Part shown: positions 22,458 to 25,800 of the stretch, piece after piece
Layout: each line of letters opens with the position of its first letter
Numbering within the stretch: the stretch's first letter is position 1
Assembly: GCF_000170755.1 (NCBI RefSeq)
Contig: NZ_ABCK01000006.1
Span: 1 to 64,000, forward strand
From: Lentisphaera araneosa HTCC2155
GTDB lineage: Bacteria; Verrucomicrobiota; Lentisphaeria; Lentisphaerales; Lentisphaeraceae
Length of the DNA stretch: 64,000 bases
Direction: 5' to 3'
The notes under the pieces: generated by a model
Databases searched by the model: none
What the model was told of the DNA's origin: nothing
What the model saw: only the letters and a program-made list of their open reading frames with translations
Program-made: the position numbers and the translations under genes

Positions 22458-23330
22458 AGTGCCGGACCCAAGTTTGGGCCCTCGAGGCTGATCCAACTTT
22501 AGCCATACACCTTACGGTGGCATGCTACATTCTGTCGATGATATGCACCTAATTAACTTGTGTGGCTTTGCCATATTGGGCAAATCAGTAGAGGGCTTTA
22601 GCCCGACATAAAATAGCGTGTGGCGTGAGCCAAATGTAAATTTTGACAAAAGGAACAAGGGCTCACTTGTGAGTCCGAAATATCGTATGTCGGACCCAAG
22701 TTTGGGCCCTTCGTTAATTTAAATTTTATTATCATCCACCTCACGGTGGACGCTATTATCTGCCGGTACTTCGTACCTAAAAAATGAATCATCTAGGGCT
22801 TTAGCCCGACATAAAATAGCGTGTGGTGTGAACCACATGTCGAATGGGAAAAATAGTAGAGGGCTTTAGGCCGACATAAAATAGCGTGTGGTGTGAGCCA
22901 CATGTAAATTTTGACAAAAGGAACAAGGGCTCACTTGTGAGTCCGAAATATCGTATGTCGGACCCAAGTTTGGCCCTTCGTTAATTTAAATTTTATTATC
23001 TTCCACCTCACGGTGGACGCTATTATCTGCCGGTACTTCGTACCTAAAAAATGAATCATCTAGGGCTTTAGCCCGACATAAAATAGCGTGTGGTGTGAAC
23101 CACATGTCGAATGGGAGAAATAGTAGAGGGCTTCAGCCCGACATAAAATAGCGTGTGGCGTGAGCCACACGTCAGTTACGAATATTAATGAGAGGGCTCA
23201 AGCATGAGTCCGAAATATCATATGTCGGACCCAAGTTTGGGCCCTTTGCTAATTTAAATTTTATTATCATCCACCTCACGGTGGACGCTATTATCTGCTG
23301 GGACTTCGTACCTAAACACTAATCATCGTG
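22458..23330. repeat. REP-like hairpin repeat array, right of the RAYT gene
   Basis: Five more core units (near 22603, 22808, 22873, 23076 and 23142) occur with GTAG-A-GGGCTT[TC]AGCCC. Longer composite blocks are repeated almost unchanged. The block TATCGTATGTCGGACCCAAG, then a CCACC-TCAC-GGTGG hairpin, then a GGTAC hairpin, appears at about 22680, 22950 and 23220, and once on the left at 21549. All copies are in the same orientation. Confidence 0.9.
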
Positions 23331-24100: not shown

Positions 24101-24349
24101 ATCACCGTCCTTAGTTGATGGATTTATAAGCATTACGTGAGTCGTGAGTGGGATATAACATTATTTTAAAGTTTAGATGATTATTCAGTTAACGATGAAT
24201 CTCTTGATGCTGAGTCAAGAAAGAGGCCGTGCCGAAGGTACGTAGCATAACTCAGATAGTATGAGAAGGCAGCCCTCGGCAAAGTCCACTTGCTAGCAGA
24301 CCTTGCCTGATATTAGTTAAGTTAACGAAAAAACTAACGGAGAACTGCC

Positions 24350-25429
24350 ATGTCTAAAATTACTATCGAAGTACCTGAAATCACAATAGGAATTGATCTT
24401 GGAAACAAAAAACATGATATTTGTGTTTTGAATTCCGCTGGAGAGAAAATTGATCAAACAAAAATTGAAAATAATATTGTCTGCTTATAAGAGTATTTTG
24501 AACAATATAAAGCTTGCTCAAAGGTGCGTGTCGCAATGGAGGTTGGTGCCAGTTCACTATGGATTTCTACGAAGCTTAAGGATATGGGTTTTCATGTCAT
24601 TATAGCCAATGCCCGCAAACTACGAATGATTTGAGCTGACACAAATAAATGCGATGAAAGAGATGCTGAAAAGATTGCGCGTGTAGCTCGAATGGACCCA
24701 ACGCTACTTCACGGAATTAAACATCGAAGTATATCAGCCCAACAAATGCTTTCCGTAATTCGTGCCCGTGAACACTTTGTTGTAGCTCGTACAAAATGTA
24801 TCAACTGTGTGCGTGGATTATTAAAAAGCCTTGGTGCCACCAATTTACCTAGTTGCGCATCAAATCGTTTTGGCGAAAGAATGTTTGAATACCTTCCTGA
24901 TGAGTTAATTCCGACTCTTGGAGAACTTCTCGAAGAATGTAAAGATTTAACAGATCGAATCAATAGATTAGATGATCGGATTCTTCAAATAAGTGAAGAG
25001 TCATGTCCAGAAGCTATAAAACTTCAGCAAATACCAGGTGTTGGTCCCATTACAGCTTTATCTTTTGTCTTAACTATTGATGACCCTAAACGCTTTCACA
25101 AAAGTAGAGATCTAGGACCTTTTCTTGGCCTTACTCCAAAAAGAGATCAATCAGGAGAGTGTGATAAACAGCTGAGTATTACAAAACAGGGAGATCGCTA
25201 TCTGAGATCATTGTTAGTAGGATCGGCTCAATTTATATTAAGCGATCGTTCACCCGATTCTGACCTAAAAAGCTATGGACTTAGAATAACTGGCCGCGGA
25301 GGTAAAATAGCTAAGAAAAAGGCTGTAGTTGCAATTGCAAGGAAGCTCGGGATTCTGATGCATCGAATTTGGATTAGTGGAGAAAACTATGATCCCTTAC
25401 ATAAAAAAACCTTTAAAAAAGTTTCATAA
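24350..25429 (+). pseudogene. IS1111-type transposase with two in-frame stop codons
   Basis: From the ATG at 24350 the frame would encode 359 residues but has TAA at 24488-24490 (codon 47) and TGA at 24632-24634 (codon 95). Around the stops the reading is ...ENNIVCL*EYFEQY... and ...ARKLRMI*ADTNKCDERD. Related proteins usually have Trp where the TGA stands, so both are probably point mutations (CAA to TAA, TGG to TGA). The DEDD N-terminal part (ITIGIDLGNKKHDICVLN) and the C-terminal LQQIPGVGPITALSFVLTID, then LGLTPKRDQSGE, are otherwise well preserved. The decay is therefore recent. Confidence 0.92.
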
Positions 25430-25743
25430 TCATCCACCAATCCAGCCAACCTCCCCACCATTTTATTGAATCACAAATAAGGAAAGAATTTAAAAAGAAA
25501 AAAGTTTAACAAATGTCTTATTAGATGACTGCGGACCATAGGTAGAACAAGAGCTTAGCCAAATCTTTTTAAAGTTCGTAACTCAGATAGCAGCATCAAA
25601 TAGGATACAATCATGCACCGGATTTGGCGATCCACAAAAAAGAGTGCGAATGGAAGCAAGACAAAATTTTATCGACATTTGAAAACTGATTTTCTCAATT
25701 ATCTAAATAATATATAACTTTAATGTAAACCGTAACTTGTAAA
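25430..25743 (+). ncRNA. Candidate guide (seekRNA/bridge) RNA region of the IS1111 element
   Basis: This noncoding segment lies 3' of the transposase, where the IS1111 group carries its guide RNA. TAACTCAGATAG at 25579-25590 is identical to 24248-24259 at the element's left boundary. ACCATAGG at 25535-25542 is complementary to CCTATGGT at 25760-25767, just beyond the right end. These are the two kinds of match expected of left and right guides. RNA boundaries and folding were not computed. Confidence 0.45.
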
Positions 25744-25759
25744 TGCCTTCTCATGGGAG

Positions 25760-25800
25760 CCTATGGTTTTCAACCATAGGATCTTAGTTTTTTTCTCATT
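25760..25800 (+). other. Hairpin with T tract at the right flank of the IS1111 element
   Basis: CCTATGGTT-TTC-AACCATAGG (25760-25780) is a perfect 9-bp stem followed by ATCTTAG and a T run. It could be a terminator, and as a palindrome it is a plausible target for an IS110-family element. The rest of the gap to 25957 shows one more hairpin (CCGTTC-TGAAG-GAACGG, 25801-25817) and no gene. Confidence 0.6.

Follow-up and report, generated by a model that had tools for sequence, protein, structure and literature searches.

An IS1111-group insertion sequence of Lentisphaera araneosa and sister elements whose predicted RNA guides match different hairpin repeats

Insertion sequences of the IS1111 type with a seekRNA include ISEc11, ISPa11 and ISKpn4 (Siddiquee et al. 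2024, PMC11187229), and the bridge RNA of IS110 has been described together with predicted bridge RNAs of the IS1111 group, in whose members the donor bases were predicted to lie in a multi-loop (Durrant et al. 2024, PMC11208160). ISPa11, ISPpu9 and ISPpu10 have been described as targeting REP palindromes (Tobes and Pareja 2006, PMC1525189). The element described here, a member of the IS1111 group of the IS110 family, was found in a 64,000-nucleotide stretch (the window) of the Lentisphaera araneosa HTCC2155 genome (6.02 Mb, 81 contigs), where it occupies 1,504 bp of the forward strand. The noncoding end that follows its transposase gene very probably encodes a bridge RNA or seekRNA that guides insertion. 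It resembles the seekRNA elements of PMC11187229 in the noncoding end 3' of the transposase gene, in subterminal inverted repeats extended by 7 bp and 3 bp, in the order of the two guide segments and in natural redirection between relatives, but differs from them in its sequence lineage, its Lentisphaera host and its hairpin-repeat targets; the present comparison adds donor guides. The pair of target guides within one internal loop, the two donor guides and the shared core dinucleotide are likewise found in the bridge RNA of PMC11208160, although in the IS110 group (IS621) the RNA lies in the left end, whereas here it lies in the right end of an element with long inverted repeats and an AG core. 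Insertion into extragenic palindromic repeats is a feature shared with the REP-targeting elements of PMC1525189; unlike these, three sister types within one genome use three repeat families, and the guides are visible. The kind of system is already known, and the chief value of this locus lies in a natural reprogramming series and in the covariation of donor guides with element ends.

The ends of the element (Table 1) were placed by the rule of a 7-bp left and a 3-bp right extension that PMC11187229 gives for the IS1111 group; since AG stands at each end, the cut position is ambiguous by 2 bp. The inverted repeats of 11 bp fall within the length of about 11-13 bp typical of the group, and the long noncoding stretch 3' of the transposase gene, also typical, spans 314 nt (25430-25743). 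Premature stops at codons 47 and 95 disrupt the transposase gene, and the window copy could at best move using protein supplied from elsewhere. A 99% identical copy in the same genome (L002) encodes an intact transposase of 359 aa with DEDD and Transposase_20 domains (PF01548, PF02371), labelled 'IS110 family RNA-guided transposase' in NCBIfam, in which LGLTPKRDQSG corresponds to the IS1111 C-terminal motif GL-P----SG. At the right end, ATGGGAG of the window copy differs at one base from its own donor guide, while the end of L002 matches. Joining the flanks at 24253/25758 restores an uninterrupted repeat, and comparison with 13 uninterrupted exact repeats revealed no target duplication beyond the shared AG, in keeping with the site-specific insertion of the IS1111 group. 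The ends mapped from these uninterrupted copies agree with the boundaries of an initial annotation that had been made from the sequence alone. The predicted circle junction reads CATGGAAG/ATAGTATG. A spacer of L. marina was rejected as an orthologous empty site: its flanking genes are conserved, but the spacer itself is unrelated and lacks the target repeat.

Table 1. Features of the element, its putative guide RNA and its target in the window.
Feature	Position	Strand	Remarks
Left target TAACTC and core AG	24248..24255	+	identical to left target guide
IS1111-group element	24254..25757	+	only stretch common to copies with differing surroundings; uninterrupted targets read ..TAAYTCAG/CCTATGG..
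Left terminal extension AGATAGT, 7 bp	24254..24260	+	extension rule, PMC11187229
Left subterminal inverted repeat ATGAGAAGGCA, 11 bp	24261..24271	+	
DEDD transposase gene, broken	24350..25429	+	premature stops 24488-24490 and 24632-24634; intact counterpart in L002
Target-binding half of RNA	25514..25607	+	12x12 internal loop holds both target guides
Outer stem of target half	25514-25522/25599-25607	+	
Target-half stem GATG-A-CTGC/GCAGCATC	25524-25532/25590-25597	+	
Right target guide ACCATAGG	25535..25542	+	complementary to 25760-25767
Target-half inner stem GAAC/GTTC	25545-25548/25574-25577	+	
Left target guide TAACTCAG	25579..25586	+	match continues into ATAG, 25587-25590
Right donor guide ACAATC, probable	25607..25612	+	near-complement of left end GATAGT, 5/6
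Donor-half stem GCAC/GTGC	25615-25618/25644-25647	+	compensatory changes
Hairpin GGATT-TGGC-GATCC enclosed by donor-half stem	25620-25633	+	
Left donor guide ATGGAAG	25650..25656	+	equals right end of sister copies; window end ATGGGAG, 6/7
Right subterminal inverted repeat TGCCTTCTCAT, 11 bp	25744..25754	+	
Right terminal extension GGG, 3 bp	25755..25757	+	
Core AG and right target CCTATGGT	25758..25767	+	
Palindrome of target repeat, CCTATGGTT-TTC-AACCATAGG	25760..25780	+	

Two segments of the noncoding end match the flanks of the element. The window contains the 12-nt sequence TAACTCAGATAG at exactly two places, 24248 and 25579, and ACCATAGG at 25535 faces its complement CCTATGGT at 25760. 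The initial annotation had reported both matches and the neighbouring palindrome, and its coordinates for all three proved correct. It had also suspected that the left match crosses the element boundary, which it does, comprising 6 nt of target (TAACTC, 24248-24253), 2 nt of core (AG, 24254-24255) and 4 nt of element end (ATAG, 24256-24259). As in seekRNAs, the segment that can pair with the top strand (25535-25542) precedes, on the 5' side, the one that can pair with the bottom strand (25579-25586), and both match the target. The AG core is present in the left target guide and the left donor guide; many elements also carry it in the right target guide, but the type A right target guide (below) lacks it. 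The left target guide may read beyond the core and cover part of the left end of the element itself (AGATAG); one loop would then recognise both the inserted junction and the empty target, a possibility that we regard as rather doubtful: the guide extension agrees with the own left extension more closely than in shuffles (bases 2-4, p=5e-4; bases 3-6, p=0.007), with common ancestry as a potential source of inflation. If true, junction reading would go some way to account for the need of intact flanks in IS1111 excision.

Searching the genome with the element identified sister elements of three types. Type A comprises three copies: the window element (L001), L002, and L003, which is truncated where its contig ends. 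A sister with 80% identity, present in four copies, constitutes type B (L004, L005, L006 and the interrupted L008/L009), and a single 73% relative, L007, represents type C in this genome. Five further type C copies were found in L. marina, with guides that match their flanks as well. While the transposases of the three types are 71-77% identical, their guides and flanks differ. The type A left guide TAACTCAGATAG meets left flanks reading TAACTC/AGATAG (L001, L003) or TAATTC/CGATAG (L002), and its right guide ACCATAGG meets right flanks reading AG-CCTATGGT; the insertion site sequence is TAACTCAGCCTATGGT, with TAACTC and AGCCTATGGT as flanks. In type B, the left guide TCCTAAAGATAG corresponds to ACCTAA/AGATAG or ACCTAG/AGATAG and the right guide CCATGCCT to AGGCATGAT or AGGCATGGT; TGCTGA/AGATAG, which borders the interrupted copy on its left, is a poorer fit to the guide. 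The type C left guide TTGCCAAGATTG accompanies TTGCCA/AGATAG, and its right guide AGCACCAGC accompanies right flanks such as GCTAGTGCT and GCTGGTGCT. Reprogramming was also observed in a Granulicella genome, where L141 combines the right guide GCGCGTTT with the flank AAACGCGC and other copies combine AGCCGACTT with AAGTCGGCT. Copies whose guides are unchanged lie at an identical position within one repeat family, and sisters with different flanks carry correspondingly different guides. Nature has in this way tested RNA-guided transposition without an experiment, the sisters of one genome having been re-aimed at different hairpin repeats, and such compact, naturally reprogrammed IS1111 systems are candidates for programmable DNA insertion.

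Some copies are damaged. In the interrupted type B copy, the transposase gene is split by another insertion sequence, which encodes a DDE transposase (PF01609) and has the ends GATGCACTCCGACA, and a 32-bp tandem duplication covers an RNA stem and the right target guide (L009 1606-1790, contig G000:C28). A lone 65-bp right end of this element in L. marina (L040, G002:C2:460049-460113), followed by a different hairpin repeat, is a remnant without transposase or RNA.

The coupling of guide and flank extends to other genomes. A covariance model of the RNA, R1, was built from types A, B and C and three Granulicella relatives, and searches with it identified related RNAs in 16 additional genomes out of 388 from the phylum, and in 17 genomes besides the Granulicella relative among 347 of that relative's phylum. 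The ends of the new elements were set by the inverted-repeat motif and the extension rule, and the guides by their place in the RNA. With the core masked, the right target guide matched its own flank at a mean of 5.9/7 positions compared with 2.8 for the flanks of other elements (16 elements, p=5e-6, no shuffle in this first phylum reaching the observed score), and the left target guide at 4.7/7 compared with 1.9 (13 elements, p=5e-6); for the right target guide in the second phylum the values were 6.3/8 and 3.6 (15 elements, p=5e-6), shuffle p-values here and for the donor guides being approximate and somewhat optimistic because the elements are related by descent. Sisters in which both guide and flank have changed argue against descent alone. 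Poor right-guide matches were seen in L115, L126, L154 and L158. In L115 (about 1690-1730) a good right-guide match, CGATTATGC, lies some five bases further out than in all other elements. The viral contigs searched contained no relative of the element; plasmid IS110 elements were distant (25-34% identity over most of the match), and the RNA scaffold was not seen by eye in the five inspected.

In the predicted fold, the target guides lie on opposite sides of the 12x12 loop, between the stems GATG-A-CTGC/GCAGCATC and GAAC/GTTC. Folding by energy alone gave unremarkable values (z -0.5 to -1.5); the structure rests on covariation. In an alignment of 22 sequences, 90% of cells were paired and 24 of 30 pairs had changed on both sides, giving a covariation score of 0.413 against 0.172 in shuffles and at most 0.075 in slid controls, figures that lean towards the structure since the alignment was fitted to R1. 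The GCAC/GTGC stem, situated between the two donor guides, covaries as well (C-G to U-A, A-U to G-C). An Rfam search of the region returned no matching model, all scores lying far below the gathering scores.

Two donor guides in the same RNA had been missed in the initial annotation. The conserved 3' motif ATGGAAG equals the right end CATGGAAG, and this left donor guide matched at 7/7 positions in 16 of 20 elements of the first phylum and in 14 of 15 of the second (p=5e-6 each). In elements with the variant ends ATAAGAG, ATAGGAG, ATAGAAA, ATGGGAG and ATAGAAG, the RNA motif was changed identically in each case, which forms part of the natural test. The right donor guide, just 3' of the target half, can pair with the left end at 4-6/7 positions (13 elements, p=3.5e-5), so that donor guides match both element ends as in bridge RNAs, the right one more weakly. 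The predicted layout of target and donor guides corresponds to the four-guide bridge RNA plan. The covariation of donor guides bears on end recognition in the IS1111 group, with the protein acting on the inverted repeats and the RNA on the terminal bases.

A mechanism can be proposed on this basis. The downstream noncoding end would be transcribed into the bridge RNA or seekRNA, whose left target guide TAACTCAG would pair with the bottom strand left of the target and whose right target guide ACCATAGG would pair with the top strand to its right, jointly defining TAACTC-AG-CCTATGGT, a site that borders a hairpin of the repeat. In the second half of the RNA, the left donor guide, equal to the right end, and the right donor guide, which complements the left end, would engage the junction of a circular intermediate. 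The RNA, in complex with the protein, may then bring the circle junction and the target into contact at their common AG core for strand exchange by the DEDD transposase.

Chance likeness in AT-rich DNA is a negligible explanation of the matches taken together, although 51.5% of 1,000 shuffles that preserved the dinucleotides of the noncoding end reached the 8-nt complement at the right flank. By itself the right match does not exceed chance, and the right guide proposed in the initial annotation stands on its conserved position and on how the elements compare with one another. For the left match, significance holds without such comparison: its 12 nt were reached in 0 of 1,000 such shuffles, the longest match being 11. 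Agreement between guides and flanks in many elements of two phyla, including elements outside model building, also speaks against chance, and the sisters and this wider coupling bear out the view of the initial annotation that the segments are guides. Were the flanking bases to travel with the element, the matches would merely be internal repeats, and some 30 nt of left flank are indeed common to L001 and L003; this is highly improbable, however, given that uninterrupted repeat copies exist without the element, that the left flank of L002 differs, and that type C copies are unrelated outside the matched site.

It is similarly very improbable that recognition of the hairpin repeat lies with the transposase protein alone and that the guide-like segments are by-products. 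All three element types here do lie in or beside palindromes, but transposases with 71-77% identity and the same inverted repeats use different sites while the RNA segments change to match, and type A occupies only one side of a symmetric palindrome, the side that matches the left guide. An unlikely though less remote alternative accepts the target guides and attributes the donor-guide matches to common ancestry of ends and RNA; ATGGAAG is common to most elements and the right donor guide reaches only 4-6/7, yet each variant end is paired with the identical guide variant, and donor guides were predicted for the IS1111 group (PMC11208160).

With RNA-guided insertion as the preferred reading, the target repeats can be described further. 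Types A, B and C all insert into or beside hairpin-forming repeats. The palindrome that, according to the initial annotation, adjoins the target is a member of a repeat family with the insertion sequence at its edge: its pattern has 14 exact matches in the genome, the window one included, and the 13 uninterrupted repeats read ..TAAYNCAG/CCTATGGTT..AACCATAGG.., with variations. Type B inserts at the centre of an imperfect palindrome, CATaCCT-AA-AGGcATG (15 sites at no more than 2 mismatches), and type C inside the stem of GCCAAGC-TGGT-GCTTGGC, for which the count of 87 matches includes overlapping palindromic matches on both strands; backwards controls for these searches gave 0, and an Rfam search of the target repeats gave no match. 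The right-guide sequence is available on both arms of the type A palindrome, but on the side where the three type A copies sit, 5-8/8 positions agree with the left guide at most sites, compared with 0-3 on the other side; because only the used side matches well, side and orientation are set by the left guide. Three hairpins make up the type A target repeat, GTGCCGAAGGCAC, CCTATGGTT..AACCATAGG and CCGTTCTGAAGGAACGG, over about 110 bp (around 1500 in L017, L021 and L027). Type C target palindromes form runs with a spacing of about 37 bp, and many of them share a strand (L063 to L077, G000:C1:311372-311776), and about 86 matches to this target were found in a genome of the same genus (G001) that has no copy of the element. 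Elsewhere in the window, at 22577-23316, three tandem copies of an intergenic repeat of about 267 bp contain several short hairpins, and units resembling this repeat are present in the syntenic L. marina spacer.
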